Assembly: GCF_017168255.1 (NCBI RefSeq)
Contig: NZ_JABFAP010000001.1
Coordinates: 2,280,645-2,344,644 of the forward strand
From: Agrococcus sp. KRD186
Lineage (GTDB): Bacteria; Actinomycetota; Actinomycetes; Actinomycetales; Microbacteriaceae
DNA length: 64,000 nt
Direction of reading: 5' to 3'
Within the stretch, counting starts at the first letter, position 1, and each line of letters begins with the position of its first letter. The notes under the pieces are model-generated. The model was not told where the DNA came from, made no database searches, and was given only the letters and a program-made list of their open reading frames with translations. Below, piece by piece: positions 14,669 through 36,212 of this stretch. A program made the position numbers and the translations under genes.

Positions 14669-14823
14669 CTAGGTGCGTGGGTCAGTAATGGAGTCGAGAC
14701 AAGAATGCTGCATCGCTACCGCGGCTAAGCGCGGTTCATGCACGAAAACGGGTCGCAACACAGGCATCTCAAGCGCGGTTCAAGATTCCTGCGCGCGCGT
14801 CGAATACTGACCCACGCACCTAG
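14669..14823. mobile_element. 155-bp MITE-like element with perfect 19-bp terminal inverted repeats
   Basis: CTAGGTGCGTGGGTCAGTA (14669-14687) is the exact inverse complement of 14805-14823. The 117-bp interior has no credible gene and contains AAGCGCGGTTCA twice as a direct repeat. The outermost CTAG at each end could be a 4-bp target duplication, but CTAG is its own complement and the call is ambiguous. It lies exactly at the break in the ABC-F gene. It is probably a non-autonomous relative of an insertion sequence. Confidence 0.75.
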
Positions 14824-14848
14824 ACGCGGTGCGTCACCTCGGCGACTG

Positions 14849-15594
14849 ATGCTCTCAGAAGGCACGATCAGCGGCATCGTCGCCGAGCTCGCCGCCGCCG
14901 AGCGCGACCGCACGGTCGTCCCGCTCCTCACCGCGCGCCACCCCGGCATGACCGTCGAGGACGCGTACACCGTGCAGCGCGCATGGCGCGCGGCGGACAT
15001 TGCGGCCGGCCGTCGTGGGCCGGAACATCGGGCTCACGAGCAAGGTCATGCAGCAGGCCACCGGCATCACCGAGCCCGATTACGGCGCGATCTTCGCCCG
15101 ACATGGTCCACGAGAACGGCTCAGTGATCGAGCACTCCCGATTCTCGTGCGCATCGAAGTCGAGTTCGCCTTCGTGCTACGCGAGTCGCTCGGGGCCCCG
15201 ACGTGACCATCTTCGACGTGCTGCGCGCAACCGAGTACATGGTGCCGGCGCTTGATATCTCTCCAGCCGCATCGAACTCGAGGGCGGACCATCGTCGACA
15301 CCATCAGCGACAATGCGGCGATGGGCGGCATGGTCTTACGGCGGTACGCCGTTCGTCCCCGAGTATGTCGACCTCAGGTGGGTCAGCGCGCTGCTCTACC
15401 GCAACGAGACGATCGAGGAGCCCGGCGTCGCCGCGGCCGTGCTGAACCACCCTGCCACGGACGTTGCGTGGCTCGCGAAGAAGCTTCGGTGACGCGCTCG
15501 AGGCGGGCGCGCTCATCCTCGCGGGGTCCTTCACGCTACCGATGTGGGTCGAGCCGCGCGACGTCGTGACCGCGGACTTCCGCCTGACGGTTAC
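14849..15594 (+). pseudogene. hpaH: Decayed 2-oxo-hept-3-ene-1,7-dioate hydratase (hpaH)
   Basis: At least five frameshifts break a gene whose pieces read in order as an HpaH-type hydratase: LTARHPGMTVEDAYTVQRAW, VVGRNIGLTSKVMQQATGI, DMVHENGSVIEHSRFS, RIEVEFAFVLRESL, VTIFDVLRATEYMVPAL, RTIVDTISDNAAMGGMV, EYVDLRWVSALLYRNETIE, and GDALEAGALILAGSFTLPMW. HpaH acts in meta-cleavage of homoprotocatechuate (4-hydroxyphenylacetate breakdown). No intact copy is in the window. The decay level shows it has been non-functional for a long time. Confidence 0.85.
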
Positions 15595-15981
15595 CTCGCC
15601 CTCGCCGACGACTTCACAAGCCTCTTCGTGCAGATCAAGACCGCCGAGGCCGTCGAGCACGCCCGAGAGATCGCATAGATCGATGGTGTGGACGGTGTCT
15701 TCAACGGCCCGAGCGATCTTGCGGCGTCGATGGGTCTGCTAAGTCAGCAGTCGCACCCTCAAGTGATGGCCGCGGTTCGGCGAGCGATCTCGGCTGCGCG
15801 GGCGGCAGGAGAGCCGGCAGGCGTGAACGCCTTCGATCCAACCGTGGCCCGCGAGTACGTCGCCGCCGGCGCCAGCTTAGTGCTGGTCGCGGCCGACGTG
15901 TCGGTGCTGGCGCGCGCCGCCGAGGGCATCGCCGGTCTGTGGGCCGATGGCGCGGCCGCCGGCGGGCGGGCGTCCGACTAA
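15595..15981 (+). pseudogene. hpaI: C-terminal remnant of an HpcH/HpaI aldolase
   Basis: Directly after the hpaH remnant the sequence reads LADDFTSLFVQIKTAEAVEHAREIA, an in-frame TAG (15676-15678), then IDGVDGVFNGPSDLAASMG and a C-terminal half ending at 15981. This matches the second half of 4-hydroxy-2-oxoheptanedioate aldolase, the step after HpaH. The N-terminal half is deleted. The two remnants together mark a lost aromatic pathway. Confidence 0.8.
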
Positions 15982-16011
15982 GAGCAGAGCGTCGTGAACG
16001 AGGCGACTGCG

Positions 16012-16896
16012 TCAGCCCAGAAATCGCGGTTCGGCGATCCCCGATGCGGCGACGTCGACCGTGAAGACGTCGCCGGCGCGCGGCTCGCCGGCCAGCTGCG
16101 TATCCGTGCGACCGAAACGAGCGGTCGTGATAAACAGCGTGGACAGGTCGGGCCCCCCGAAGGCCGGGCAGGTCGGGTTGCCGACCGCCACTTCGACGAT
16201 CGCGTCGAGTGCTCCGTCCGGCGTGAACCGGACGACGGCGCCGCTACCCCACCGCGCGTTCCACAGACAGCCGTCGGCGTCGACCGTCGAGCCGTCGGGC
16301 AGGCCGGGATACTCCGTGCCGTCCGAGATCAGCACCGGGTCGTGGGGAACACCCTCATCGATGTCGTACGCGTAGGCGACGATCCGCCCCGTGGGCATGT
16401 CGGTGAAGTACATGCGCGTGCCGTCCGGGCTGAACGCGATGCTATTCGCGCAGGCGATGCCGTCGAGGATGCGAACGACCGCGCCGTCCGCGTCGAGCCG
16501 GTAGACGGCCGAGACCGCGCGCTGGTCGGCGGCCTCGTCCATGCCGCCGCAGACGAAGCGGCCCTGGCGGTCGACGCGGCCGTCGTTCAGGCGGGTCGTC
16601 GGCAGCTCGGGCTCGACCTCCGCGATGCGGCGCTCGATCTCGCCATCCTCGCCGAGCAGCGCAAATCCGCTCGCGAACGCCGCTACGTGGCCGCCTCCGG
16701 CGCGCAGACCGATGGCGCCGATGCGCTCGGGCAGCGTCGCCGTGATGAGCCCCGTTTCGCTGCCCCAGCGCTGCAACCGCGCGGCGTGGATGTCGACCCA
16801 CGACAGCTCGGAGCGCTCGGCATCCCAGACGACGCTCTCACCCAAGCCGTCGCCGCTGCCGACGACCGGCTCAGCCGTATAGCGCGCGGCGCCCAT
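16012..16896 (-). CDS. SMP-30/gluconolactonase-family lactonase
   Basis: A 294-residue six-bladed propeller enzyme of the SMP-30/regucalcin/gluconolactonase family. The metal-ligand Glu is in GLGESVVWD, the Asn and Asp sites lie in ANSIAFSPDGTRMYFTD, and the last blade carries NPTCPAFGGPDLSTLFITTAR. It hydrolyses sugar lactones to aldonic acids and probably acts on the product of the two dehydrogenases encoded upstream. Its ATG shares one base with the SDR stop (TGATG), so it is the coupled last gene of the operon. Confidence 0.9.
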   Translation of the reverse strand: MGAARYTAEPVVGSGDGLGESVVWDAERSELSWVDIHAARLQRWGSETGLITATLPERIGAIGLRAGGGHVAAFASGFALLGEDGEIERRIAEVEPELPTTRLNDGRVDRQGRFVCGGMDEAADQRAVSAVYRLDADGAVVRILDGIACANSIAFSPDGTRMYFTDMPTGRIVAYAYDIDEGVPHDPVLISDGTEYPGLPDGSTVDADGCLWNARWGSGAVVRFTPDGALDAIVEVAVGNPTCPAFGGPDLSTLFITTARFGRTDTQLAGEPRAGDVFTVDVAASGIAEPRFLG

Positions 16897-17669
16897 CAGT
16901 GCATGACCAGACCCGCGGTGACGTTGATCGCCTGCCCAGTCATCGCGCTGCTGGCCGGGCCGGCAAGGAACTGGACGACGGCCGCGACCTCGTCGGCGGT
17001 GACGAAGCGACCCAGGGGCGCTTCGCTCTCCCAGCGCTCGCGCATGCCTTCGAGCGACACACCCTCGGCTCCCGCGTGGCGCCGCATGACGTCCTCGATG
17101 CGGTCGCCTTCGACGGGCCCCGGGCAGACTGCGTTGACGCGCACGCCGCGATCGGCGAGCTCGAGTGCGAGCGTCTGCGTGAGTCCGACGAGCGCCCACT
17201 TGCTCGCGACGTAGTCACCGCGATAGGGCAGGCCGCGCTTGCCGACGTTGCTGGAGAGATTCACGATCGCCGCTCCGTCGCCGTTCAGCAGCGGGATCAC
17301 CTCGCGCGTGACCAGCATCGTGCCCGTGAGGTTGATGCGAAGAGTCTGCTCCCAGCCGCTGAGCGGCATGTCCTCGACCTGGTGGTAGTGGCCGTTCATG
17401 CCCGCGTTGTTCACGAGCACATCGATTCGGCCGTCGAGCAGTCGCCCGGCCTGGGCGACCGCGTCACGGACGCTCGGTTCGGAGGAGACATCGCACCGCA
17501 CCTGATCTACCGTGGCGCCCCCTGCCTCGATGAGCTGGATCGTGTCCGCTGCGTCCTGGATGTCCGCGATCACGACGTGAGCGCCCTCTGAGGCGAAGGT
17601 GCGGGCGATCGCCCGGCCGACCCCCGCGGCGGCGCCGGTGACGAGGACATTCCGGCGTGCACGCGTCAT
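16896..17669 (-). CDS. SDR-family oxidoreductase
   Basis: A 257-residue classical short-chain dehydrogenase. It has the cofactor motif VTGAAAGVGRAIA (TGxxxGxG), NNAG near residue 88, and the catalytic Ser...Tyr-x-x-x-Lys as NLSSNVG...YVASKWA. An acidic Asp after strand 2 (VVIADIQD) suggests NAD preference. Its ATG overlaps the stop of the Zn-dehydrogenase gene by 4 bases, and it is followed by the lactonase, so oxidation of a sugar or sugar alcohol within the island's pathway is the likely role. Confidence 0.9.
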   Translation of the reverse strand: MTRARRNVLVTGAAAGVGRAIARTFASEGAHVVIADIQDAADTIQLIEAGGATVDQVRCDVSSEPSVRDAVAQAGRLLDGRIDVLVNNAGMNGHYHQVEDMPLSGWEQTLRINLTGTMLVTREVIPLLNGDGAAIVNLSSNVGKRGLPYRGDYVASKWALVGLTQTLALELADRGVRVNAVCPGPVEGDRIEDVMRRHAGAEGVSLEGMRERWESEAPLGRFVTADEVAAVVQFLAGPASSAMTGQAINVTAGLVMH

Positions 17670-18742
17670 GCTGTGGCCTCCGCTTCGCCCGACGTCTGCC
17701 CCATCGTGATCACGATCTTTCCGCTCGCCGCGCCGTCCGCCACCGCGAACGCCGCCGCTGCATCGTCGATGTCGTACACGTCCGTCACGAGCGCACCGAG
17801 GTCGACGTTCCGCTCCGACACGTACGACAGCACCCCCGCGAGTTCGTCGAGGCCGAAGACCCAGGATCCGATCACGGTCAGCTGCTTGTGGATGACCTGC
17901 TCGCTGACGTCGACGTCGACGTTGCCGCCCTCGCCGACGAAGGCCAAACGGCCGAGGACCGCCATGGCATCCAGCAGGTCGTGGCGGGCACGGCCGTTGC
18001 CCGACGCATCCAGACCGACCGACGCGCCGCCGCCGCTCCACTCGCGGATCGCGGCAACCGCATCGCCCTCGGCCGGGCTCAGCACGAGGTCGGCACCGGC
18101 CTGCTCGGCGAGCTCGCGCCGCTCGGCCGACATGTCGACCGCGGCGACCCGTGCACCGAAGTCCCTGGCGAACGCCACAGCGGCGAGACCGACCGGGCCG
18201 AGACCGTAGACGACCACGGTGTCGAGGCTCGTGACCGCGAGCTTGCGAAGGGCGTTGTAGGCGGTGCCCGCACCGCACGCGCAATAGGCGGCGACCGTCA
18301 TCGAAAGGTCGTCGGGCACGCGGATGACGTCTCTCGCCCTCGCGACCATCGTCTCGGCGAAGGCGCCGTCGATGTCGAAGCCGTACGTGCGCTTGCCCTC
18401 GCAGTGCATGGGCAGGTCGCGCGTGCACCACGAACAGTGCCCGCAGCCGGAGATGTGGTGAACGATGACGCGGTCGCCGACCGAGAGGCCGACGACGCCG
18501 TCGCCGACCGCCACGATCGTGCCCGCCGGTTCGTGGCCGGGCACCGCGTCGGGATTGATCGTGACGCCGAGCCGCGGCTTGCCACGCTCCTCCGACGGCA
18601 CACGGTACAGATAGTGCAGATCGCTGCCGCACACTCCGGCGGCCTCGATCCGCACCGTGACCTCGTCACGGCCCGCGGGTCGCTCCGGAGCCGTGATCAC
18701 TTCGACCCGCCGATCGCCGGGGAAGAACAGACGCTTGGACAT
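17666..18742 (-). CDS. Zinc-dependent medium-chain dehydrogenase
   Basis: A 358-residue MDR-family alcohol dehydrogenase. Catalytic zinc ligands are the Cys in AAGVCGSDLHYLY and the His/Glu in PGHEPAG. The structural zinc site is the four-Cys lobe GCGHCSWCTRDLPMHC. The Rossmann motif is VVYGLGPVGLAAVAFA. It resembles sorbitol, threonine and L-idonate 5-dehydrogenases, so it probably oxidises a sugar, polyol or sugar acid. The gene follows the ABC importer genes across a strong hairpin and is coupled to the SDR gene. Confidence 0.9.
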   Translation of the reverse strand: MSKRLFFPGDRRVEVITAPERPAGRDEVTVRIEAAGVCGSDLHYLYRVPSEERGKPRLGVTINPDAVPGHEPAGTIVAVGDGVVGLSVGDRVIVHHISGCGHCSWCTRDLPMHCEGKRTYGFDIDGAFAETMVARARDVIRVPDDLSMTVAAYCACGAGTAYNALRKLAVTSLDTVVVYGLGPVGLAAVAFARDFGARVAAVDMSAERRELAEQAGADLVLSPAEGDAVAAIREWSGGGASVGLDASGNGRARHDLLDAMAVLGRLAFVGEGGNVDVDVSEQVIHKQLTVIGSWVFGLDELAGVLSYVSERNVDLGALVTDVYDIDDAAAAFAVADGAASGKIVITMGQTSGEAEATA

Positions 18743-18765
18743 GATGCCTTTCGAGAGGTGTGAGA

Positions 18766-18797
18766 GCCCGGGGCACGGCGAACGCCGCGCCCCGGGC
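18766..18797 (-). terminator. Strong hairpin between binding-protein and dehydrogenase genes
   Basis: GCCCGGGGC (18766-18774) pairs with GCCCCGGGC (18789-18797); CGGCG/CGCCG inside continues the stem after one mismatch. There is no T-run. It follows the binding-protein stop and may act as a partial terminator or a 3'-end stabiliser that keeps binding-protein mRNA above the level of the enzymes downstream. Confidence 0.6.
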
Positions 18798-18808
18798 GAT
18801 TGCTTCGC

Positions 18809-19852
18809 CTACTCCGCCGTGAGGCCGTACTGCTCGAGCACCGCCTCCAGCGTGGTCTTGCGGGCGGTTTCGACGTCGTCGACGTAGGACCCGACGTTCT
18901 CGGTGTCGACGAGCTGGGTGTCGAGGATGACCTCGGACTCCGCGTCGCCGTCGGTCGCGAGCAGGTACGCGAGCGCGATGGCGGTCGCACCCATCTCGTA
19001 CGGCACCTGGTCGATCGTGAAGCCCATCACGCCGTCCTGAATGCCGGTGAACGCGTCGGGGGTCCCGTCGAAGCCGCCGAGCAGCACCTGGCCGGCGAGA
19101 CCCTGCGACTTCAACGCCTCGAGCGCGCCGAGTGCCATGCTGTCGTTCGCCGCCCAGATGGCGTCGAGGTCGGGGTTCGCCTGCAGGATGTTCTCTGCGA
19201 CGGTCTGCCCTTCCTCGCGCGAGAGGTTCGCGATCTGCGAGGCCACGACCTCGACACCGGGGTTCGCCTCAAGCCCGGCGGTGAAGCCGTCCTGTCGCTG
19301 CTGGATGATGTCGCGCCCGGGCGTCCCCTCGAGCACCGCGACGGTGCCGCCGTCGGGCAGGGCGGCGGCGACCCACTCGCCGGCGAGCTCGCCGCCCTGC
19401 TGGTTGTCGGCGACGACCGATGCATCCACATCGGTCGTGACATTGATGCCGTCGGTCACGACGGGGATGCCCTGATTGCGGGCCTCGTCGATCGCGCCGT
19501 TGATGGCGTCGGTGCTCGTTGGGTCGATCTGGATCACGTCGGGTCGCTGCGCGATCAGGTTCTCGATCGACGCGATCTGCGACGACGGCTCGTAGGGGCT
19601 GCTGGCGGGGTTGGTAACCAGGCGCAGCTCGGCACCGAGCGCGTCGGCCATGTCCTGCGCACCGTCTGCGAAGGCCGCATACCAGGGGTTGTCAAGCGTT
19701 GGCAGGCTCTGGCCGATAACGATCGTGTCCTCGTCGCCGCCCTCGCCGCCGCCCTCGCTGCCGCCCGCTGCGCCCGAGCAACCGGTCAGGACCAGTGCGG
19801 TGGAAGCCGCGGCGGCGATTAGGGCGGCGGTGCGTCGGGTACGTCCGTGCAT
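18809..19852 (-). CDS. RbsB-like sugar ABC transporter binding lipoprotein
   Basis: A 347-residue type-1 periplasmic binding protein (Peripla_BP_4). A lipoprotein signal ends in LVLTGC at about residue 25, followed by a Gly/Ser/Glu-rich linker (GAAGGSEGGGEGGDED) to the membrane anchor. The binding domain starts at TIVIGQSLPTLDNPWYAAF. ATG 19852 has AAGGAG 6 bases upstream. An in-frame start at 19876 would put that site inside the gene. It binds the pathway's unknown sugar for the permease and ATPase encoded upstream. Confidence 0.92.
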   Translation of the reverse strand: MHGRTRRTAALIAAAASTALVLTGCSGAAGGSEGGGEGGDEDTIVIGQSLPTLDNPWYAAFADGAQDMADALGAELRLVTNPASSPYEPSSQIASIENLIAQRPDVIQIDPTSTDAINGAIDEARNQGIPVVTDGINVTTDVDASVVADNQQGGELAGEWVAAALPDGGTVAVLEGTPGRDIIQQRQDGFTAGLEANPGVEVVASQIANLSREEGQTVAENILQANPDLDAIWAANDSMALGALEALKSQGLAGQVLLGGFDGTPDAFTGIQDGVMGFTIDQVPYEMGATAIALAYLLATDGDAESEVILDTQLVDTENVGSYVDDVETARKTTLEAVLEQYGLTAE

Positions 19853-19868
19853 GGGAACTCCTTCGTTC

Positions 19869-20873
19869 TTAGTCATTGGTTCTCCTGTTTCTCCAGTCGA
19901 GTCCGACTGCGAGCAAGATCAACCCGCCGACGAACAGGCCCTGGAAGTAGGGCGAGACGTTCAGCAGATTGAGACCGTTGTTGATGACGGTGATCAGCAG
20001 CGCACCGGCGATCGAGCCCCAGACCGAGCCGCGACCACCGCTGAGGCTCGTGCCACCGATGACGACGGCAGCGATCACGATCAGCTCGATGCCGGCACCG
20101 GCGGTCGGCTGGCCGGAGTTCTGACGAGCCGTGAGCACGACGCCCGCGATCCCGCCGAGCACGCCGAGCAGCGCGTACATCGTGATCTTCCAGCGGGGCG
20201 TGCGCACTCCGGAGAGGAATGCCGCCTTCTCGTTGCCGCCGATCGCGAACGCGTAGCGGCCGATCAGGGTGCGCCGGAGCAGCAGAGCGCAGATCGCCAC
20301 GACCAGGAACGCGATGATGACGGGGGTAGGGATCGGACCGATGAAGCCCTGGCCGAGATACGTGAACGCCTCGGGGAGGCCCGAGATCGGCAGGCCTTGC
20401 GTGTAAGCGAGCGCGAGACTCGATCCGATCGTCATGGTTCCGAGCGTGGCGATGAACGCCGGGATCTTAAAGACCGCGACCGCGACACCATTGACCAGGC
20501 CGAAGACCAGGCCGATCGCGAGCGCGATGAGGATGGCTGTCCAGACCGGCGTGCCGCCCTGCATCATGCCCGCCGCGATGACGCCGGTCAGCGCGACCAC
20601 CGACCCGACCGAGAGGTCGATGCCGCCCGCGATGATCACGAACGTCATGCCGGCCGCAAGGATCGCCGTGACCGCGCTCTGCCTGAGGATGTTGATGACG
20701 TTGTACTCGGTGAAGAACGCGTCCGTCAGCGCGCTGAAGATCACGCACACCAGCACGAGGCCGACGAGGGACTGCGACTTCGACAGGATGCCGAGCACGC
20801 GCTCTCGGCGCTCGAGCGCCGAGACGGCGGGCTTGGTGTTGTCGCCGGTGGCGACTTCGGTGTTAGAAAGCAT
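19869..20873 (-). CDS. RbsC-like sugar ABC transporter permease
   Basis: A 334-residue BPD_transp_2 permease with 8-10 membrane segments and the family motif MTFVIIAGGIDLSVGSVVALTGVIAAG. Its ATG overlaps the end of the ATPase gene by 11 bases, and the binding-protein gene follows 16 bases later. Together the three genes form one CUT2-type importer of a pentose, hexose or related compound. Confidence 0.92.
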   Translation of the reverse strand: MLSNTEVATGDNTKPAVSALERRERVLGILSKSQSLVGLVLVCVIFSALTDAFFTEYNVINILRQSAVTAILAAGMTFVIIAGGIDLSVGSVVALTGVIAAGMMQGGTPVWTAILIALAIGLVFGLVNGVAVAVFKIPAFIATLGTMTIGSSLALAYTQGLPISGLPEAFTYLGQGFIGPIPTPVIIAFLVVAICALLLRRTLIGRYAFAIGGNEKAAFLSGVRTPRWKITMYALLGVLGGIAGVVLTARQNSGQPTAGAGIELIVIAAVVIGGTSLSGGRGSVWGSIAGALLITVINNGLNLLNVSPYFQGLFVGGLILLAVGLDWRNRRTND

Positions 20874-22359
20874 GTTCCATGACCTCGTCTTCCGTCAGGC
20901 CGGTGTTGTTGAGAACTGTTGAGACGCGCCCCTCGCGCATGACGAGGATGCGGTCGGCAAGCGCGATCAGCTCCTCGGTCTCGGACGAGATCACGATCAC
21001 CGCGGCGCCCTTTGCGGCCGCGTCGCGGATCATGCGCCAGATGCCCGACCGAGCACCCACGTCGACACCCTTCGAGGGCTCGTCGAAAATCAGCACCTTG
21101 TACTCGTCGAGCAGCCAGCGGCCGATGAGCACCTTCTGCTGGTTGCCGCCGCTGAGATAGGTCGTCGCCTTGTCGATCGTGCGCGGGCGCACGTCGAACG
21201 AGTCGACGCACTCGGTGGCCATGGCCTTCGCGGCCTTGCGCCGGACCCAGGTCGCGACCGAGAGCTTCGCGAGATGCGGCAGCACCACGTTGTCTTCGAT
21301 ACTCGAGCCGAGCAGGAGCCCCTGCGTCTTGCGATCCTCGGGCACGAGCACGAGCCCGGCGCGTATGGCCGCGTTCGGCGTGCGCGGCCGGAAGCGCGCG
21401 CCGTCGAGCGAGACCGATCCAGTGACACCGCGCTCCAGGCCTACGAGCGCACGAACGGTCTCGGTACGGCCGGCGCCGACAAGCCCCGCCATCCCGAGGA
21501 TCTCACCCGGGCGTACGTCGAAACTGATATCAGTGACCTTCCCTCGCACGGAGAGCTCGCTCACGCTAAGCATGGGTGGGCCGGTGAATCGTTCGCCGTG
21601 GTCCGACTCGATCTCTCGCTTCTCGGCCTCGAGCTCACGACCGAGCATCGCCGACACGACCTCGTCGCGCGTGGTCTCAGCCGGTACGCGGGTGCTGAGC
21701 ACCCTACCGTCGCGCATGATGCTGATCCGGTCCGAGATGCGGAAGACCTCGTCAAGCTTGTGGCTGATGTAGATGACCGCGATGCCGCGCGCGGTGAGGC
21801 GCCGGATCGACTCGTGCAGGCGTTCGATCTCTGCCGACGAGAGTGCCGCCGTCGGCTCGTCCATGATGATCAGCCGAGCGTTGGTGGCGAGCGCCTTGGC
21901 GATCTCGACGAGCTGACGTTCAGCCGTCGTCAGATCGGCGACGACGGTCGTCGGCTTGGCCCGTGATCCGATCTCGGCGAGCGCGGCGGCTGCGCCCGAG
22001 CGGATGCTCCGGGCGTGCTCGAAGAGAGCCGTCTCGGGCTCGCGGCCGAGGAAGATGTTGCTCGCACAGTCGAGGTGCGGAATCAGGTTCAGCTCCTGGT
22101 AGACGGTGCTGATGCCGGCTCGCACGGCGGAGCCGGGGTCCTTGAAGTCGGCCGGCGCTCCCTCGAACGCGACCGAACCGGCGTCCGCCTTGTGCACGCC
22201 CGCCACGATCTTGGTGAGCGTGGACTTGCCGGCGCCGTTCTCGCCGAGAAGCGCGTGCACCTCACCGGCGCGCACGTCGAAGTCGACGCCCCGCAACACG
22301 CTGTTGCCGCCGAAGCTCTTGGTCACTCCCCGCACCTCGAGGAGGGGTGGTGTGGTCAT
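20863..22359 (-). CDS. RbsA-like sugar ABC transporter ATPase (two domains)
   Basis: A 498-residue CUT2-family ATPase with two nucleotide-binding domains. The first has Walker A GENGAGKST, signature TTAERQLVEIAKAL and Walker B IIMDEPTAALS. The second has the degenerate Walker A region GLVGAGRTE, signature LSGGNQQKVLIGRWL and FDEPSKGVDVGA. These are the normal features of RbsA/XylG/MglA. It is the first gene of the six-gene operon that runs to the lactonase, behind a well-formed promoter at 22428-22456. Confidence 0.93.
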   Translation of the reverse strand: MTTPPLLEVRGVTKSFGGNSVLRGVDFDVRAGEVHALLGENGAGKSTLTKIVAGVHKADAGSVAFEGAPADFKDPGSAVRAGISTVYQELNLIPHLDCASNIFLGREPETALFEHARSIRSGAAAALAEIGSRAKPTTVVADLTTAERQLVEIAKALATNARLIIMDEPTAALSSAEIERLHESIRRLTARGIAVIYISHKLDEVFRISDRISIMRDGRVLSTRVPAETTRDEVVSAMLGRELEAEKREIESDHGERFTGPPMLSVSELSVRGKVTDISFDVRPGEILGMAGLVGAGRTETVRALVGLERGVTGSVSLDGARFRPRTPNAAIRAGLVLVPEDRKTQGLLLGSSIEDNVVLPHLAKLSVATWVRRKAAKAMATECVDSFDVRPRTIDKATTYLSGGNQQKVLIGRWLLDEYKVLIFDEPSKGVDVGARSGIWRMIRDAAAKGAAVIVISSETEELIALADRILVMREGRVSTVLNNTGLTEDEVMEHAF

Positions 22360-22419
22360 GCGACTGGGCCTCCGTTGATCCCATCAAACGCGTCTCTGCG
22401 GTCGCGCTCTCCATTGAAT

Positions 22420-22456
22420 GTAGGATCAAACTAGAACCTACTCCGCCAAATGTCAA
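22420..22456 (-). promoter_or_regulatory. Promoter and candidate operator of the sugar-uptake operon
   Basis: On the minus strand TTGACA (22451-22456) is followed 17 bases later by TAGTTT (22428-22433), about 70 bases before the ATPase ATG. An inverted repeat GTAGG (22420-22424)/CCTAC (22437-22441) lies over the -10 region, suitable for a repressor. The divergent aldolase gene starts at 22517, so one regulator could control both directions. Confidence 0.6.
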
Positions 22457-22516
22457 AAGACTCAGCGGACTTGCGTTCGTGATAGATAGGCTTCATCCTA
22501 TGTTTGGGAGGTAGTG

Positions 22517-24255: not shown

Positions 24256-24286
24256 TGCCAGGCACGAGGAGGGAAGGGAACGTCCG

Positions 24287-27710: not shown

Positions 27711-29972
27711 ATGTCGAGTCGGCATGCAGACGGCACACCGCTGGTGAGTCTGGACCCGTACCGGGCCCAGATCCTCGCCCGCGTCGCCGACCGGATCCTC
27801 CCGCCGTTCGACGGGCACCCCGGCGCGACGGAAGCCGGCGTCGTCACGTATATCGATCGCGCGTTGGGCGGTCACGACCACGAGCAGCTCGACGAGTACC
27901 GACTCGGCCTCGATCATCTCGCCCGGGCGGCTTCGGAGCTGTTCGACTGCGAGATCGTCGCAGCGAGCGACGATCAGATCGATGAGCTCATCGAACGGCT
28001 CGAGCGCAACGAACTGCCCGGGCAGATCCACCCGCCCCAACGCCGGTTCTTCGCGCGCCTGCGCGCCCATGTCCAGGAGGGCATGTTCGCCGATCCCGTT
28101 CACGGCGGTAACGCCGGAACGGCCGGCTGGCGATTCCTCGGGCACCCGGGTGTGTGGCTCGACCACAGCGCCGAGGAGAACCTCTCGAGCGAGCCCGTCG
28201 ATCGGGGCGGCGAGATCCGCACGGCCGCCGACGCGGGCTACCGGATGACCGCTGTGCCCGCCCCAGCCCAGATCCCGGGCTTCGACCCGCAGGCCGGAGC
28301 TCGACCGCCCGCCGATGACGCCGACGTGGTGATCGTGGGCATGGGCGCGATGGGCGGCATGGTCGCGCCCCTCCTCACCGCAGCGGGTCTGCGCGTGGTC
28401 GGGTTCGAAGCCGGCGGGTGGCGCCAACGTCGCGATTACCGGCCGGACGAGCTCGAGGCCGCGTACTACGCGCGAGCCGGCATGGGCGCAAAGTTCACGT
28501 CCGAATCTCCGCGCTGGCGTCGCAACGACGGCGACCCCACCCAGCCCATGACCTACTCCCTCGGACGCATGATGAACGGCGTCGGCGGGACGATCGTGCA
28601 CTGGGGCGGCGCCCTGCGGCGGTTCCATCCGCACCAGCTCCGGTTCCTCAGCCACGTCGTCGACCGGTACGGCGAGGATGCGCTGCCTGACGGCTCGACC
28701 CTCGTCGACTGGCCCCTCTCGTACAGCGATCTCGAGCCGTACTACGAAATCGCCGAACACCTGGCGGGGGTCGCGGGCAACACCGACAATCCGTTCGTCC
28801 CGCGGCGCAGCGACTATCCAATGCCGCCGCTGCGACCGTTCCGGAAGGGACAGCTGTTCGCCGACGCGACCTCGCGCCTGCGCTACCACCCGTATCCGAC
28901 GCCGGCCTGTGTCAACAGCGAGCCGTACAACGGGCTTCCGAGCCTGCGCTATCACGCTTGGGCGGCGGCGTTCGGCGCGTTCGACGACGAACGCTGGAAT
29001 CCCGGGCTCACCTCCGTGCCCGAAGCGCTCGAGTCGGGCTTGCTCGACCTGCGCACGCAGTGCCGGGTCATCCGAGTGCTCACCGACGCCGACGGCGTGA
29101 CCGGCGTGGAATACGTCGATGCTCGAGGCGACGTGCAGGTGCAACGCGCTCGGACGGTGATCCTCAGCAGTTACACCTTCGAGAACCTCCGCCTCATGTT
29201 CCTGTCCGCGGATGATCGTCACCGCGCGGGCCTGGGGAACTCCGGCGGACAGCTCGGCCGGCACTTCATGGTCAAGCAGTGGGGCGACGTCTACGGCATC
29301 GTCCCGGGCGCAACTTTCAACGCGCACACCGGCCCGGCATCTCAGATGGTCACGATGGACGACCTCACCGCCGAATCGTTCGACTCCAGCGCCGGCGGCT
29401 TCATCGGCGGCGCAAGTCTCAGCATGGAGAATCAGGTGCTGCCGTTGCAGATCGCCAGGGACCCGCTCCCCGACGATGTGCGGCCCTGGGGCCGCCCGTA
29501 CCAGGAGCATCTCCGCCGTTGGCAGGACATCACCGCGGTCCGGATCCAGCCCGAAACACTTCCCTACGCCTCCGACTTCGTCGATCTCGATCCCGTCCAC
29601 CGGGACCGTTCGGGGCTCGGACTGCCCGTCCTGCGGGTCACGACGGACATGCGCGCCAACGAGCACCGGCTGCGCGACTTCATGGACGAACGCGCCCGCG
29701 ACATCCTCAGGGAGATGGGCGCGACGAAGACCTGGTCGAGCGGACGCCTGACCGGGGTCGGGTCCAGTCACGATCTGGGCGGTGCGCGCATGGGCGAGGA
29801 TCCGCGTACGAGCGTGGTCAGCCCCGACCTCGAAGTGCACGACACGACCGGGTTGTTCGTGCTGAGCGGCGCGACGTTCCCGACCTGCCCCGGGGTGAAT
29901 CCGCACCTGACGATGATGGCCCTGGGTTTGCGCGCGATGGAGCGTCTCACGGCACGGATCGGAGGCAGCTGA
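27711..29972 (+). CDS. GMC oxidoreductase fused to gluconate-dehydrogenase subunit-3 domain
   Basis: A 753-residue fusion. Residues ~10-150 match the small subunit 3 of membrane gluconate 2-dehydrogenase (ARVADRILPPFDGHPG; EGMFADPVHGGNAGTAGWRFLG). From about residue 200 it is a GMC flavoprotein with the FAD motif VVIVGMGAMGGMVAP, and C-terminal active-site His residues in SSHDLGGARMG and GVNPHLTMMALGLR. In classical enzymes these are separate exported subunits with a cytochrome partner. Here no Tat signal and no cytochrome gene is present, so it may act in the cytoplasm with another acceptor. ATG 27711 follows the ALDH stop by 4 bases. Confidence 0.9.
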   Translation: MSSRHADGTPLVSLDPYRAQILARVADRILPPFDGHPGATEAGVVTYIDRALGGHDHEQLDEYRLGLDHLARAASELFDCEIVAASDDQIDELIERLERNELPGQIHPPQRRFFARLRAHVQEGMFADPVHGGNAGTAGWRFLGHPGVWLDHSAEENLSSEPVDRGGEIRTAADAGYRMTAVPAPAQIPGFDPQAGARPPADDADVVIVGMGAMGGMVAPLLTAAGLRVVGFEAGGWRQRRDYRPDELEAAYYARAGMGAKFTSESPRWRRNDGDPTQPMTYSLGRMMNGVGGTIVHWGGALRRFHPHQLRFLSHVVDRYGEDALPDGSTLVDWPLSYSDLEPYYEIAEHLAGVAGNTDNPFVPRRSDYPMPPLRPFRKGQLFADATSRLRYHPYPTPACVNSEPYNGLPSLRYHAWAAAFGAFDDERWNPGLTSVPEALESGLLDLRTQCRVIRVLTDADGVTGVEYVDARGDVQVQRARTVILSSYTFENLRLMFLSADDRHRAGLGNSGGQLGRHFMVKQWGDVYGIVPGATFNAHTGPASQMVTMDDLTAESFDSSAGGFIGGASLSMENQVLPLQIARDPLPDDVRPWGRPYQEHLRRWQDITAVRIQPETLPYASDFVDLDPVHRDRSGLGLPVLRVTTDMRANEHRLRDFMDERARDILREMGATKTWSSGRLTGVGSSHDLGGARMGEDPRTSVVSPDLEVHDTTGLFVLSGATFPTCPGVNPHLTMMALGLRAMERLTARIGGS

Positions 29973-30012: not shown

Positions 30013-31044
30013 ATGACGCGGACAGACGGCGATCGCACACGGGCGCGGCTCGTCGACGTCGCCGCGCACGCCGGCGTGACCAAGTCGGTCGTGAGCCGTG
30101 TCCTTAACGGCGACCGGACGCTCGCCATCCGCCCCGAGACCCGAGAGCGCGTCCTCGCTGCGATCGAGGAGCTCAACTACCGGCCGAGCGCGGCCGCCAG
30201 GGCGATCAACGGTGCGGGCGCGAAAGCGATCGCGTTCGTCACACCGAACCTCACCAATCCCGGCATGGCGATGATCAACCGCGGCGCTTGGGAAACGGCC
30301 ACCGCGAGCGGGTACGTCGTACTCATCGTCGAGGCGGCCGAGACGGTCGCCGCGGCCGACATGTTCGCCGAGCTGGTGCTCGCCGGACGCGTCGACGGCC
30401 TTCTGCTCGGGACCCCTCAGCCGCAGACGGGACTCGTCGACCTCCTCGACGCCCACCGCGTGCCGTTCTTGTACGTGAACCGCGCGGCGGCCGGCTCCGG
30501 ACGCAACGTCAGCCTCGACAATGCGGCGACCAGCCGCGCGGCGGTTGAACACCTCAGCGCCCTGGGGCATACCCGCATCGCGCACATCGCCGGACCCCGT
30601 GGCGTCTCGACCGCGGACGAACGAGCGGCCGGGTTCGTCTCGGCCATGGAGGCGCTGCCCTCCGGGACCGCAGGACCGGTCTTGCACGCGGAGTTCTCCG
30701 AACGCGACGGAGCCGAAGCCGCCCGCCGCCTGCTCGGGCAGCACCCGGACGTCACTGCCATCTATCTCGGGACTCTGATGCAGACGCTCGGCGCACTCGA
30801 CACACTCCGTCAGCTCGGTGTCGACGTTCCCAGCCGGATGTCGGTCATCACCGCAGACGACTTCCCGGTCGCCGCCTACCTCGATCCGCCGCTCACGACG
30901 ATCGAGCTCCCGCTCAGAGAGCTCGGGGCGCGTGCAGCCAGCGAACTGATCGCCCAGCTCAGCGGCGGCCGGCCGCGCGATGTCATGGTCGACTCGACGC
31001 CGGTCGTGCGAGTGCGCGCGTCGACGGCCGCGCCCCGCGCCTGA
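30013..31044 (+). CDS. LacI-family regulator 1
   Basis: A 343-residue LacI/GalR repressor. The helix-turn-helix and hinge are LVDVAAHAGVTKSVVSRVLNG and NYRPSAAARAI; the rest is a periplasmic-binding-like effector domain. It follows the GMC gene by 40 bases in the same direction. A LacI-style palindrome CGCTTAAGCG lies inside the gntP promoter at 33258-33267, a likely target. Confidence 0.9.
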   Translation: MTRTDGDRTRARLVDVAAHAGVTKSVVSRVLNGDRTLAIRPETRERVLAAIEELNYRPSAAARAINGAGAKAIAFVTPNLTNPGMAMINRGAWETATASGYVVLIVEAAETVAAADMFAELVLAGRVDGLLLGTPQPQTGLVDLLDAHRVPFLYVNRAAAGSGRNVSLDNAATSRAAVEHLSALGHTRIAHIAGPRGVSTADERAAGFVSAMEALPSGTAGPVLHAEFSERDGAEAARRLLGQHPDVTAIYLGTLMQTLGALDTLRQLGVDVPSRMSVITADDFPVAAYLDPPLTTIELPLRELGARAASELIAQLSGGRPRDVMVDSTPVVRVRASTAAPRA

Positions 31045-31087: not shown

Positions 31088-31789
31088 ATGAAGCGCATGG
31101 GAACCGATCAGCCTCGCGCGCGCGTGTCTGACTCGGCAGCCGAGGAGCTCCGGCGACGAATCATGCGTGGCGACTACGAGGTCGGTGTCCGGCTGCCCTC
31201 CGAGCAGGAGCTCGCGAGACAACTGGGCGTAGGCCGAAGCTCGATGCGCGAAGCGGTACGCACACTGCAGACCGCCGGGTACCTGCGAAGCACACAGGGT
31301 GTCGGAGTCTTCGTCGTCCGTCGCGAGCCGCGCGCCTTCGGCATGGACCAGTCGCTCATGGGCGGGTACACCATGAGTGATTTGTTCGAAGCTCGCGTTG
31401 CCATCGAGTCCACCGCGGCTGCTCTCGCGGCGCGCCGGCTGACTGACCACCACCGGGAGTTGCTCGAGTCGATCATCGCGTCCGCGTCGGACCCGGAGAT
31501 AGACGCGATGAGCTTCGTCGCTCTGGACGCGCGACTGCACCGTCAGGTCGCCGAGGCCAGTGGCAATCCACTGCTGCTGCACATGTGGGAGGGTCTCTCC
31601 GCGCAGTTCGAGGAGTACTCGACCAAGGTCATCTGCATGCCGGGCCGCCAGCACCGCGCGCACGAAGACCACCGCTCGATCGTCGAAGCGATCCTCGCCG
31701 GCTGCGCGGATCTGGCCGCCGAGCGCGCCCGTGAGCATGTGTTCGCGGTGCAACGAGAACTGCGGGCCGGCGCCACCACGGAGAACTGA
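31088..31789 (+). CDS. GntR/FCD-family regulator 2
   Basis: A 233-residue regulator with winged helix LPSEQELARQLGVGRSSMREAVRTLQ and FCD domain MSDLFEARVAIESTAAALAARRL...LHRQVAEASGNPLL. Its winged helix is the usual length, but it differs enough from regulator 1 to be a separate family member rather than a recent duplicate. Starts at 31088 or 31097 are both possible; neither has a strong ribosome site. It lies beside the broken gntP gene. Confidence 0.85.
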   Translation: MKRMGTDQPRARVSDSAAEELRRRIMRGDYEVGVRLPSEQELARQLGVGRSSMREAVRTLQTAGYLRSTQGVGVFVVRREPRAFGMDQSLMGGYTMSDLFEARVAIESTAAALAARRLTDHHRELLESIIASASDPEIDAMSFVALDARLHRQVAEASGNPLLLHMWEGLSAQFEEYSTKVICMPGRQHRAHEDHRSIVEAILAGCADLAAERAREHVFAVQRELRAGATTEN

Positions 31790-31811: not shown

Positions 31812-33157
31812 TCAGACCAAGATGTCGGCCAGGAGCACGAACGCCAAGACCACCAAGGCGAGCATCGACTGGGCGAGCGTATAGGTCTTCAGCGTGCCCC
31901 GGGTGGGCAGCCCGCACAGACTCCGGAGCATCCAGAACACGTTGTCACTGAACTGGCCGCCGAAGCAGCCACCAGCCCCGCGGCGAGCACGACGAGAATC
32001 GGAGAGAGACCGAGATCGGCGATGAGGGGAGCGATGATGCCGATGGCCGTCAGGCCGGCGACCGTCTGACCGCCGATCGCCATCCGAAACACCGCCGCGA
32101 TGCCCCAGACCGTCACGAGCGGAAGCGCCGGGTTCGCATCGAGCAGATCGGCGAGCACCTCCTGCATGCCCGTTCCGACGATAATCGCGCCGAGCGAACC
32201 GGCGGCAGCGGTGACGACGAGGATCGTCCCCACGGTCTCGAGCCCGGTTCACCTGCTTCTCCTCAGCCGCCAAGGCCTTTCGGACGACGATGATCACGAG
32301 TGCGGTCAGCGTACCCGCCAGCAGGGCGATCACAGGGCTTCCCAGGAACTCGACGATTGGGACCTCAGCCCCCAATGCCGTGGTCATGCTCGACGTGACG
32401 ATCAGCTCAAGGACGACGATGATCGGCGCGAGAGTCACGAGCAGCGAGGGAAGCCGACCGCCGGTGTCGCCGTCGTCCTCGGCAACCCGGGAACGGCTTC
32501 ATCCGCGATGTCCTCGTCGAGCGTCGTCTTCCAGCATCCCCCGCGCTCGATCAGCAGGAGATACGCGAACGTCGTCACCATGACCGCTGGGATCGCGGCG
32601 AGCAACCCTGGCAGCAGCATCTCCCCGGCGGTCAACTCGAGCATGCCGATGTAGACGAGCATCGCCGGCCCCGGGATCACGAGCGCGCTTCCAGCGGCGA
32701 GGCCCATGGCCACAGGCCCTACGAGGGACGCCACCGGTCGACCGGTGCGACGTGCGGCGGTGCGCGCGATCGGAGCCACCAGCGCCAGCAGCACGTCGCA
32801 GTCGATCGAAGGCGTGACCGTGGAGAGCGTCAGACTGAATGCGTTTGGCGAACCCTTGGAGCCGGACAGCTTCACGATACTGCCGGCGATGCGTTCCACG
32901 GCCCCGTACACTGACATCAGCGTGCCCATGACGATGCCCAGGCTGATCAGGAGGCCGAGCTCGGCCACCAGCGCACCGAAGCCCTGGTTCACCCCGTGGA
33001 CCACGTCGGCGAACGACATTCCCGAAGCGAGCCCCAGCACGATCGTGCCGCAGAGCAACGCGATGGCCGGGTTCACGCGAAGCCAGACGATGGCTCGCCC
33101 GATTGCGAGGCATACGAGGATGAAGAGCGCGGTCAGCCCAGCTGCTGACTGTGTCAC
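31812..33157 (-). pseudogene. Frameshifted GntP-type gluconate permease
   Basis: The full length of a GntP-family permease (~448 codons) is present, but the frame changes near 32440-32480, again near 32240 and again near 31965. Intact pieces include SFADVVHGVNQGFGALVAELG, SIDCDVLLALVAPIARTA, GTILVVTAAAGSLGAIIVG and the C-terminal FSDNVFWMLRSLC. The likely start is GTG at 33157, behind a good promoter. Three shifts in 500 bases suggest decay; sequencing error should be excluded. When intact it would import gluconate-like acids. Confidence 0.8.
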
Positions 33158-33245
33158 CGCTTTCGACTCGGGCCAGCGCCGGACGACGCACCGGATTCGC
33201 GGGAAATGCCCCGCGTCAACGGCACGACTCCTCAGACAACTTGAC

Positions 33246-33274
33246 ACAGTATGCAACCGCTTAAGCGCTGTCAA
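33246..33274 (-). promoter_or_regulatory. gntP promoter containing a LacI-type operator
   Basis: On the minus strand TTGACA (33269-33274) and TACTGT (33246-33251) are separated by exactly 17 bases. The spacer holds the perfect palindrome CGCTTAAGCG (33258-33267), placed to block RNA polymerase. TTGACA also occurs on the plus strand at 33241-33246, making an outer inverted pair, so the divergent dehydratase gene could share control. Confidence 0.65.
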
Positions 33275-33377
33275 TCCGAGAGGAAGAACCTGAGGATCGA
33301 GCCTGTATGTGGCACCGGCAACCACTCCTCTGAGGACCTGTTACAGTTTCCCTGCACCTGCAGCGAAAGGCATCCCT

Positions 33378-34571
33378 ATGAAGATTGCGCGCGTCGAGAC
33401 CTTCATCCTGAAGGCCCCCCTCGGGTCTGACACGTTCTTCTCCTCTCAGGCAGCGTTTCCTGAGCGCACCAGTCTCTTGGTTCGGCTGACGACCACCGAT
33501 GGCATCACCGGATGGGGCGAAGGCGGTCAGTACGGCCCGGCGGAACCCGTAAAGTCATGCGTCGACGACGTCCTCGCCGCCCAGCTCCTCGCGATGCCCG
33601 ACGCGTCGCCCGGAGTGGTCTGGGAGACGCTCTACTCGCGCACTCGCGACTTCGGCCAGAAGGGTACCTACGTCGAGGCGCTCAGCGCGATCGACATCGC
33701 CCTCTGGGACATCCTCGGCAAGTCGCTCGGGGCGCCCGTCTCAGCGCTGATCGGCGGACGATTCCGCGACAGCGTCAAAGCGTACGGGACGGGGGGCTAC
33801 TACTCCTCGACTGAATTCGACGCCGATCGCGACCTGCCGGCACTGGCGGAAACCGTATCGCGGTACGCCTCTGACGGCTTCGGCATGCTGAAGCTCAAGG
33901 TTGGGCTCCTGGCGGTCGCGCAAGATGCCCGACGCATCGCGACGGTCCGCGAAACGCTCGGCGACGATTTCGCCCTCCTCGCCGACGCGAACCACGCCTA
34001 CAGCGCCAGCACCGCGGTGGCGATCGGCCGCGAGCTCGAGGCCAATGGCTTCCTGTTCTTCGAGGAGCCGGTGCCGCCGGAGGACCGCGAGGGATACGCC
34101 CGGGTCCGCTCCCGTTTGGACATCGCGATCGCCGGCGGCGAGGCGGAATACACCCGCTACGGCTTCCGCGACTTCATCGAGGCTGGCTGCGTCGACATCC
34201 TTCAGCCCGACATCTGCGTGTGCGGGGGCATCTCCGAAGTACAGAGGATCGCGACGCTCGCCTCGACGCGCAATATGCGCGTCATCCCACACGTCTGGGG
34301 ATCGGGCATCGCCCTGGCCGCCGCATTGCAGGTGTGCAGCACCCTGCCCCTGACGCCGTACACACACGTGCCGGTGCCGCTACAGAACGAACCGGTCATC
34401 GAGTTCGACCGAACCCGCAACCCGCTCCGCGACGAACTGCTCACCGAAGGGTTCGCACTTGAGGACGGACGTGTCCGCGTGCCCGACTCGCCCGGACTCG
34501 GTGTGAACGTCGACCTGTCGGTCGTCGAGCACTACCGCGTGGACGCCGGTGCACCAGCGTCGGCGATGTGA
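33378..34571 (+). CDS. Enolase-superfamily acid-sugar dehydratase 2
   Basis: A 397-residue mandelate-racemase-subgroup enzyme, not closely similar to dehydratase 1. Catalytic parts are the Lys-x-Lys in FGMLKLKVGLLA, metal ligands in LLADANHAY, FFEEPVPP and IAGGEAEYT, and the Asp/His dyad LQPDICVCGGIS and IPHVWGSGI. The C-terminal PLQNEPVIEFDRTRNPLRDEL is typical of galactonate/altronate-type dehydratases. ATG 33378 has AAAGG upstream. It is divergent from gntP, so import and dehydration of one acid may once have been paired. Confidence 0.9.
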   Translation: MKIARVETFILKAPLGSDTFFSSQAAFPERTSLLVRLTTTDGITGWGEGGQYGPAEPVKSCVDDVLAAQLLAMPDASPGVVWETLYSRTRDFGQKGTYVEALSAIDIALWDILGKSLGAPVSALIGGRFRDSVKAYGTGGYYSSTEFDADRDLPALAETVSRYASDGFGMLKLKVGLLAVAQDARRIATVRETLGDDFALLADANHAYSASTAVAIGRELEANGFLFFEEPVPPEDREGYARVRSRLDIAIAGGEAEYTRYGFRDFIEAGCVDILQPDICVCGGISEVQRIATLASTRNMRVIPHVWGSGIALAAALQVCSTLPLTPYTHVPVPLQNEPVIEFDRTRNPLRDELLTEGFALEDGRVRVPDSPGLGVNVDLSVVEHYRVDAGAPASAM

Positions 34572-35130
34572 CGTCTGGCGACGCAGAGTCCTGTCAGAGA
34601 CAGCTCACAGCTCAGTTCTCAGGAAGATCGTGCGCAATTGCCAGTGAATTCCAGCGCATCACGACTCGCTGGACTTAGCGGATCCACGTGACCCCTCAAG
34701 ACGTGAGCCATAGTGCTGCCCGCTTCGCTGCCACTCGGGGACTTCCGCTTCTCGGCGCTTGAAACTACTAGATCTCGCTCGCTATCGCTCGCGAGCCGAC
34801 GGCGATGTGTCAATATAACGACGGTTTCTGGGTGGGTCCAGATCACTCAATCTTCGTGCGTTGTTTTGGCACGAGAATTGGTACGAGTGACAGGGACCTA
34901 ATCGGCCGATAGAGCCCTGAACGCGAGCGTCCAGTACTCGACATCGGCTACGCGGCAGAATCCGGCCCGATACGCATCGCCGACATGGTGAAGCCTGCGA
35001 ACAGCGTGTCCGTGCTGCTGGGCGAAGAGCGGCATGGCCTATGGCAGCCCGCCCGATATTGCCTTGCCGATCGCCGGCGAAAGTCGACTTACCAGGAGAA
35101 ACTCGCAGACGGGTCTGCCGACTCCAAGTA
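34572..35130. other. 559-bp lower-GC stretch without a recognisable gene
   Basis: Base composition is visibly lower in G+C than elsewhere, with runs such as GTGTCAATATAACGACGG. Short frames exist on both strands, but none reads as a protein; a plus-strand piece from 34985 is briefly protein-like and then breaks down. It is probably debris near the right edge of the island. No terminal repeat matching the left element was found here. Confidence 0.6.
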
Positions 35131-35523
35131 TCAAACGGGAGAGCGTGTCCATACTCGATTGCCGAGCCCGAGTTCGAGCTGTGCCAGCTCCAGCTGAGTC
35201 GGCCACCGACGACCATCAACCCAGCTCTGCATCTCCGTCGCGGGAATGCCGGTGCGCGGGCCGACCTCATCGACACCTAAGTCGTCCACCGCCGTCTTTA
35301 CACGCAACACAACTAGACGAACCCTCTCCGCTTCCTCAGTGAAGCAGTTTTCATTCGGCCAGTCGTTGCTCGTGATCGAGGGAGGCACACGCCCTGTCCA
35401 CCGTTCGATCAGGAAGTCCGCGAGACCATTCGCAGAAATCACCATCCGGTCGCATTCAGCGTCCCACGCAGCATCGCGTCGCGGCCAGAGCGAGACGCCC
35501 AGTCCATCCTCAAGGCTTGCCAA
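35131..35523 (-). CDS. Hypothetical protein, possibly a gene fragment
   Basis: A 130-residue frame that reads like real protein, for example NGLADFLIERWTGRVPPSITSND and VRLVVLRVKTAVDDLGVDEVGPRTGIPATEMQSWVDG. The last third could be a small helix-turn-helix. There is no clear ribosome site and I do not recognise a family. It lies in the decayed right edge of the island, so truncation is possible. Confidence 0.4.
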   Translation of the reverse strand: MASLEDGLGVSLWPRRDAAWDAECDRMVISANGLADFLIERWTGRVPPSITSNDWPNENCFTEEAERVRLVVLRVKTAVDDLGVDEVGPRTGIPATEMQSWVDGRRWPTQLELAQLELGLGNRVWTRSPV

Positions 35524-35699
35524 ATCGACAGCAGCCGTCTACAACTACACCCGGCCAGCGTGAAGTGATATGCCGCAAGGGGGCACCGTCGGACGGCGAA
35601 CCGATCGAGTGTGATCGCCTCATACAAGCGGAACACAGATGGATGTCACGTATGCGTACTGCGAGAACTGATCTTCGGCGTGAACGACATCGCCACCCT

Positions 35700-36212
35700 C
35701 TACGCGATGTCGGCGCGCTGCAGGCGGATGGCGGCCAGGCCGACCAGCACGGCCTCGCCGCCGGAGAGGGCCGCGATCGGCCTGCGCAGCAGCTCGGCCC
35801 CGCGGGTGCGCTCGAGCGCCGGCAGCCCGAGCGCCGCGAACTCGGCGAGCGCCTCGGACTCGATGCCCCAGCGGTCGCCGACCTGGTCGAAGCGCTCGGG
35901 CGCGACGTCGCCCGACTCGATCGCCTCGATCGCGCCGAGGAGCCCTGCGATGCCGAGCGCATCCGCCACCGTGCCCGAGCCGAGCGCGAGCTCCTGCGGC
36001 AGCGTCGCGACGGTGCCGTGCAGCTGCACCTCGCCGGAGGCAGGGGTGAGCTCGCCCGCGATCAGCCGCAGGAGCGTGGACTTGCCGGCGCCATTGCGGC
36101 CGACCAGGCCGGTGCGGCCGTGGCCGAGCGCACCGGAGACGCCGTCGAGCACCGGGGTGCCGTCGGGCCAGGAGAAGTGGACGCGCGTGAGCGCGATGGC
36201 GGGATGTGCCAA
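35700..36212 (-). pseudogene. N-terminal fragment of the split ABC-F ATPase
   Basis: 170 intact codons of the first ATPase domain, with Walker A LVGRNGAGKST, GELTPASGEVQLHG and signature LSGGEAVLVGLAAIRLQRADIA. The protein breaks off exactly where LLDEPTN should follow; a TAG stop (35700-35702) comes from foreign DNA. TTG at 36212 is the start, with GGAGG 7 bases upstream. The C-terminal part is at 14255-14668. ABC-F proteins protect ribosomes from antibiotics or rescue stalled ribosomes; this one must be inactive. Confidence 0.85.

Follow-up and report, generated by a model that had tools for sequence, protein, structure and literature searches.

Introduction

Catabolism of 3,6-anhydro-L-galactose (L-AHG), an agar sugar of red algae, has been described in Streptomyces coelicolor, where the part of PMC9706016 available to us assigns a dehydrogenase (SCO3486) and a cycloisomerase (SCO3480) that turns 3,6-anhydro-L-galactonate into 2-keto-3-deoxygalactonate, and also describes agarases. 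The route in Aquimarina sp. ERC-38, as given in the accessible portion of PMC10163077, comprises six enzyme classes (AHG dehydrogenase, cycloisomerase, two dehydrogenases, 2-keto-3-deoxygluconate (KDG) kinase and KDPG aldolase), with four genes in an agar locus together with agarases and two elsewhere, and an excerpt of PMC5698469 covers dauABCD of Zobellia galactanivorans, for carrageenan and D-anhydrogalactose. Here we analyse a stretch of 64,000 nucleotides from Agrococcus sp. KRD186 (the window; part of contig C1 in a 3.1-Mb genome of 25 contigs) in which, as read from sequence comparison, an island of ~20.9 kb (14847-35702) stands in place of ~710 bp (237 codons) from the middle of an ABC-F gene, a member of the ATP-binding cassette (ABC) ATPases. 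The explanation as a whole, insertion into the ABC-F gene of an island for anhydrogalactose-type catabolism, has in our estimate a probability of roughly 0.7. Insertion itself is an ordinary kind of event; the points of interest are the cargo and the repeated target. An accessory catabolic module stands where part of a native gene should be, relatives keep the empty site, and a second species also has this gene interrupted. Literature searches turned up no title on this island or on this ABC-F target gene.

Results

The island interrupts a single ABC-F gene

Pieces of an ABC-F gene lie at both ends of the island, in the following setting (window coordinates).

13131..14156, minus strand: left neighbour, beta-lactamase-family serine hydrolase (Pfam PF00144; same neighbour in relatives)
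14255..14668, minus strand: C-terminal fragment of ABC-F with two frameshifts and a Glu-to-Lys change in LLLLDEPTN (match to the protein of relative G001)
14669..14823, no strand: 155-bp element with 24-nt inverted ends (arms 92% complementary), inside the ABC-F fragment, no open gene
14822..14846, minus strand: 25 bp of ABC-F sequence resumed beyond the element, overlapping its last 2 bases
35703..36212, minus strand: N-terminal ABC-F fragment, 170 codons (match to relatives)
36495..37226, minus strand: right neighbour, methyltransferase (family search; also adjoins ABC-F in G001)
37236..37712, minus strand: right synteny neighbour, which we take to be YbaK-like (same neighbour in relatives' loci)

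The frame of the N-terminal piece (35700-36212, minus strand) is open for 170 codons as far as RADIA and then meets a stop. Homology to relatives starts at 35703 or 35704 in most loci, and the best orthologue (92%) is that of G001, the nearest relative among the 23 other genus genomes compared (24 with the window's own) and the reference for both pieces. The C-terminal piece runs from 14668 downward, starts with ETAMLSQRI, is spread over two frames and reads LLLLDKPTN against LLLLDEPTN in G001. Because both pieces match one G001 protein, at residues 32-201 (N-terminal) and from 447 onward (C-terminal), they are parts of one gene, and an origin from two ABC-F families, named in the earlier note as a finding that would undo its proposal, was ruled out. 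Alignment of the window to G001 by BLAST (pieces shorter than 120 bp were left out of DNA comparisons with relatives) stops at 14667 and restarts at 35703. These ends are 736 bp apart in G001, and the gap, which lies inside one gene, narrows to 710 bp (~237 codons) when the 25 bp on the far side of the element are included. The proposed split by a block of ~21 kb is thus borne out, as is the accompanying deletion, which is larger than the ~200 codons first claimed.

Comparison across the genus gave the same picture. In the locus reading, from which ABC-F rows below 45% identity were left out, the gene aligned in one piece to at least residue 580 in 15 of the 23 relatives (G001, G002, G004, G007, G008, G009, G010, G013, G014, G015, G016, G017, G020, G021, G023). 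The fetched locus of eight of the 23 (G001, G004, G009, G010, G013, G015, G017, G023) holds a full ABC-F gene between the hydrolase and YbaK-like genes used as synteny neighbours, with the island absent; this is the contiguous arrangement that the earlier note had said should be sought, and close relatives thereby provide the empty site expected of a genomic island. We regard insertion with deletion of part of the ABC-F gene as almost certain.

The remaining loci were more varied. G018 has a single ABC-F frame of 542 codons with a weaker C-terminal match, and in G003 the match reaches only residue 448, in a shortened gene whose 864-codon frame also takes in the neighbouring hydrolase (L118 7557-10148). 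No ABC-F gene was detected at 1e-30 in five of the 23 relatives (G005, G006, G012, G019, G022), three of which (G012, G019, G022) are only 65-86% complete; in G006, where the locus lies on a contig of 2.67 Mb, the flanks are ~140 bp apart without ABC-F. The gene is evidently dispensable, since it is undetected in five of 23 relatives, split in one and shortened in another.

The target had been called a ribosome-protection gene, a name that the profile search did not sustain. The G001 orthologue, with two ABC domains in one protein and YheS, EttA and Uup as the top solved chains, scored 281.5 bits against NF000355, the model for the ABC-F ribosome-protection family, below the curated cutoff of 380; the N-terminal piece in the window scored 53.8. 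By these matches the target is a member of the ABC-F superfamily, and a role in ribosome protection is unproven.

A 155-bp element within the C-terminal stub

The left border of the island had originally been placed at 14668, where the C-terminal fragment meets the 155-bp element. Behind the element, 14822-14846 agrees with the syntenic ABC-F continuation at 22 of 25 bases in G004, G009, G010, G013 and G015 and at 18-19 bases at the same place in G001, G016 and G021, and in other loci the best match lies elsewhere. As a control, random 25-mers from the island were placed freely in the loci of five relatives, and 1 of 60 scored at least 22; unlike these, the 25-bp match had its position fixed beforehand from neighbouring sequence. 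The continuation of ABC-F beyond the element places the element inside the stub and the start of the island near 14847, which rules out a border at 14668. The 155-bp inverted-repeat element was also inserted in the stub. It occurs once in its own genome and is absent from the 23 other genus genomes; its end sequence occurs in none of 298 other family genomes, and it was not found in plasmids. In being short and gene-free with inverted ends it resembles a miniature inverted-repeat transposable element, from which it departs in lacking the several copies typical of that class. The element (14669-14823) is flanked by CTAG.

Gene content of the island

Features from the left border to the N-terminal ABC-F fragment were as follows.

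14850..15583, plus strand: hpaH-like pseudogene (DNA 77% identical to that of G049, 10 gap openings; a single frame gives only 34%)
15586..15981, plus strand: hpaI pseudogene, C-terminal part only (PF03328 in one frame)
16012..16902, minus strand: SMP-30/gluconolactonase (PF08450)
16896..17684, minus strand: short-chain dehydrogenase, SDR (PF13561)
17666..18742, minus strand: zinc-type medium-chain dehydrogenase, MDR (PF08240, PF00107)
18809..19876, minus strand: sugar ABC importer, substrate-binding protein (PF13407)
19869..20873, minus strand: sugar ABC importer, permease (PF02653)
20863..22359, minus strand: sugar ABC importer, ATPase (PF00005 twice; NCBIfam sugar-importer models, below cutoffs)
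22514..23167, plus strand: KDPG/KHG aldolase (PF01081; TIGR01182 above cutoff)
23161..24255, plus strand: KDG kinase-like PfkB kinase (PF00294)
24287..24991, plus strand: GntR/FCD regulator (family search)
25077..26183, plus strand: MR1, enolase superfamily, probable 3,6-anhydrogalactonate cycloisomerase
26222..27706, plus strand: aldehyde dehydrogenase (ALDH), probable anhydrogalactose dehydrogenase
27711..29972, plus strand: GMC oxidoreductase fused to a gluconate 2-dehydrogenase subunit 3 domain (PF13618, PF05199)
30013..31044, plus strand: LacI regulator (family search)
31097..31789, plus strand: GntR/FCD regulator (family search)
31812..33325, minus strand: GntP permease pseudogene, pieces alternating between two frames (PF02447)
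33378..34571, plus strand: MR2, second enolase-superfamily enzyme
34572..35702, no strand: right end of the island, GC-poor (GC profile)

The self-contained sugar-acid pathway that had been read here holds for the core, which is devoted to sugar catabolism, and the several pseudogenes noted before (hpaH, hpaI and the GntP permease) were recovered. It does not extend to the ends. The left 1.1 kb consists of broken hpaH and hpaI, genes of aromatic catabolism, the former presumably of the 2-oxohepta-3-enedioate hydratase type; these remnants (14850-15981) are 77% identical in DNA to G049 and ~68-76% to other listed family genomes, and the first 114 HpaI residues have no match in the hpaI remnant. 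The last 1.1 kb (34572-35702) is without gene assignment: no Pfam family scored above cutoff in the nine frames tested, only stretches of 33-44 bp were found in 98 other genomes (in five of them), and neither phages nor plasmids matched its 135-residue frame.

A candidate route for an agar sugar

MR1 and the ALDH suggest a substrate. MR1 aligned without gaps over 357 residues to structure 2ovl (E 2.4e-152), followed by 5xd7 (5.4e-92), which is deposited as 3,6-anhydro-alpha-L-galactonate cycloisomerase, as against 2.3e-57 for the talarate/galactarate dehydratase 2pp0. The 2ovl chain start (MSL, then IERVRTD) fits SCO3480 as cloned in the available part of PMC9706016, from which we infer that 2ovl is SCO3480, and MR1 keeps seven of the eight active-site residues listed there at the mapped positions. 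The best solved structure for the ALDH, which belongs to a broad enzyme family, is 6j75 (1.3e-125), entered as 3,6-anhydro-alpha-L-galactose dehydrogenase in the accessible portion of PMC10163077; Asn161, Glu259 and Cys293 are present, under the same numbers as in the S. coelicolor dehydrogenase. MR1 is thus a probable 3,6-anhydrogalactonate cycloisomerase and the ALDH a probable anhydrogalactose dehydrogenase. The KDG kinase and KDPG aldolase classes are both present by sequence, the kinase-like protein having as its best solved match 2afb, a 2-keto-3-deoxygluconate kinase (1.4e-42).

All six enzyme classes of the L-AHG route, as that portion of PMC10163077 sets it out, lie within 16896-27706. 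In the candidate route the ABC importer would take up the sugar, the ALDH would convert it to 3,6-anhydrogalactonate and the MR1 cycloisomerase would pass this on to 2-keto-3-deoxy-L-galactonate. MDR and then SDR would yield 2-keto-3-deoxygluconate, from which the KDG kinase followed by the KDPG aldolase would produce pyruvate and glyceraldehyde 3-phosphate. The arrangement is unlike that in Aquimarina, since here all six genes, together with an importer, fall within 11 kb. It also differs from S. coelicolor and its agarases: the ALDH and MR1 genes lie side by side, and the search of the island genes showed no agarase or other glycoside hydrolase. Z. galactanivorans offers a parallel in MR2, whose nearest structures are DauB (5olc, 3.5e-93) and a galactarolactone cycloisomerase (4ggb, 6e-93), both so identified in the excerpt of PMC5698469, and in the dehydrogenase, cycloisomerase, kinase and aldolase classes; MR2 is, however, equally near the galactarolactone enzyme, and no carrageenan enzymes were seen in the island. 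If the substrate call is true, six enzymes for the breakdown of a red-algal sugar are packed closely here without agarases in the island, which would point to scavenging of sugar that other organisms release.

Several observations weigh against this reading. The identity of 2ovl is itself inferred, and MR1 has Leu where the eighth listed residue, Glu-307, maps; we suspect that the listed number is a misprint for a conserved Glu ten residues on. The best solved structures of MDR and SDR are general dehydrogenases, so that two of the six steps depend on class and neighbourhood. None of MR1, MR2 and the ALDH reached an NCBIfam equivalog cutoff, SMP-30, GMC and MR2 are superfluous to the L-AHG route, the lack of a glycoside hydrolase among the island genes searched counts here as well, and no donor of the island was found in the family, class and order genomes or plasmids searched. 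The same insertion could instead have brought a different cargo, for ordinary galactose-derived acids (D-galactonate, galactarate or galactarolactone); MR1 and MR2 would then be dehydratases, or galactarolactone cycloisomerase acting after the SMP-30 lactonase. The presence of that lactonase and the place of MR2 between 5olc and 4ggb fit such a cargo, as does the best NCBIfam model for MR1, a talarate/galactarate dehydratase (250.9 bits, under the cutoff of 500), but MR1 is much nearer to 2ovl and 5xd7 than to 2pp0 and the nearest structure of the ALDH is 6j75. While the enzyme classes can be read from the genes, the substrate and the order of steps are our interpretation, and we lean only slightly towards L-AHG or a close sugar as the substrate of the core. 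Because class and neighbourhood are all that places MDR and SDR, the lean is kept small, and the galactose-derived acids are left as a serious contender at somewhat short of even odds.

Origin and distribution of the island

Genomic islands inserted in protein genes are generally sporadic blocks of differing composition with an empty site in relatives, and the island shares these traits. Its 15 open genes have a GC content at third codon positions (GC3) of 0.80-0.90, compared with 0.91-0.96 in seven neighbouring genes, the ABC-F piece included. The low-GC edges described earlier were confirmed on the right (0.635-0.656 over 33001-36000), not on the left (0.712 and 0.677 over 14001-16000). With 12 candidate stretches scored per genome, the block was present in one of the 24 genus genomes, and the other 23 gave scattered stretches only, the best of the matches listed reaching 181 bits against 33,493 for the island's own. 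The island departs from the general pattern in that the target gene is partly deleted and that neither a mobility gene nor a flanking repeat was seen: there was no integrase or other recombinase among the island frames searched, and the longest word shared near the two ends is 10 bp, a length of at least which was reached by 25 of 200 random pairs. On balance the island is very probably foreign in origin.

The search for a donor returned fragments. At the DNA level, 298 other family genomes (one or two stretches scored per genome) gave partial matches only, the best of those listed being the hpaH part at 77%. For the GMC enzyme, 20 of 397 other family genomes gave matches of 33-38% at 1e-60, and none of 393 other class genomes gave one at 1e-120; the enzyme's best plasmid match (Arthrobacter, 49%) sits in a different gene context. 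MR1 was matched at 61-64% in three of 395 other order genomes, in one of which LacI, SDR and MDR genes (29-49%) are close by and the other members of the cassette are missing.

An independent split of the ABC-F gene in G011

In G011, a close relative of G015 (C-terminal part and hydrolase almost identical in trees; 96% identity over two 5-kb stretches), the ABC-F gene is also in two parts. The N-terminal part is on contig C25 (L195 4713-5067 onward) and is followed, in the stretch examined, by genes for a P-type metal ATPase, a DUF305 protein and a phosphoketolase, the contig ending at 148,290. The C-terminal part is on contig C6 (L196 4565-6123); after it come a fragment of a resolvase domain (E 3.6e-8) and, where the contig ends, an rve transposase. 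Relative to G015, 886 bp of the gene are missing, and the parts replaced overlap (G001 residues ~202-437 in the window and ~117-413 in G011). The G011 gene was split independently of the window's and beside a differing gene set, with metal-transport genes next to one half, which is new here; contigs C6 and C25 are unjoined, and a rearrangement is possible.

The truncated serine-recombinase domain beside the G011 C-terminal piece raises the idea that the gene may hold an attachment site. Under this idea accessory DNA would have landed repeatedly in the ABC-F gene within the genus, and the window's island would be a relic without its recombinase, which we consider a long shot. Compared with the window, the G011 recombinase fragment gave one hit, at E 0.49, outside the island.

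History of the pieces and flanks

An error of assembly, in which a misjoin brings ABC-F pieces to the ends of the island, might be entertained for a genome in 25 contigs, but each flank runs collinear with its counterpart in G001 and other relatives as far as the break point, the missing ABC-F piece is short and internal, the island differs from the flanks in GC3 throughout and a single copy of the N-terminal piece was found in the genome; we consider it highly improbable. More substantial is the proposal that the island was not inserted in this lineage, and that the hydrolase and the C-terminal piece, with or without the island, came from another genus member through homologous recombination. 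In trees the N-terminal piece groups with G001 (100/100). The best tree places the C-terminal piece apart from G001, but a joint window-G001 clade for it was not rejected (p 0.20). Identity to G001 is 92-94% in the N-terminal piece, 87-88% in the C-terminal piece and 82-91% in the hydrolase (77-86% over most of the methyltransferase), and it reaches 97-100% over most of 8101-10200 and 99-100% over 37503-38403, with mostly 90-97% farther out; the two highest values perhaps reflect recent exchange or strong constraint. Differences from G001 at first, second and third codon positions number 14, 0 and 20 in the N-terminal piece and 13, 8 and 26 in the C-terminal piece (Fisher p 0.018 for the second-position contrast), the latter much as in intact relatives, which again suits import. 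Against it, changes polarised with a few relatives fall on the window lineage rather than G001 in a ratio of 37:18 for both pieces compared with 24:34 for the hydrolase (Fisher p 0.008; p 0.08 for the C-terminal piece alone), as decay would give. We judge import unlikely.

The C-terminal stub had been described as decayed. The two frameshifts, the Glu-to-Lys change and the inserted element agree with this, but its private substitutions show no excess (12, and 12 in the intact gene of G021). The substitution signal of decay is mixed, a pattern that could stem either from rapid change following the split or from exchange of the left flank.

Two further features of the flanks were recorded. Left of the hydrolase, two adjacent genes at 10690-13100, judged by eye to encode CBS-domain membrane proteins, lack a DNA match in the G001 locus. 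On the right, near the end of the methyltransferase gene, a 17-nt unit is repeated in a short tandem array at 36402-36486.

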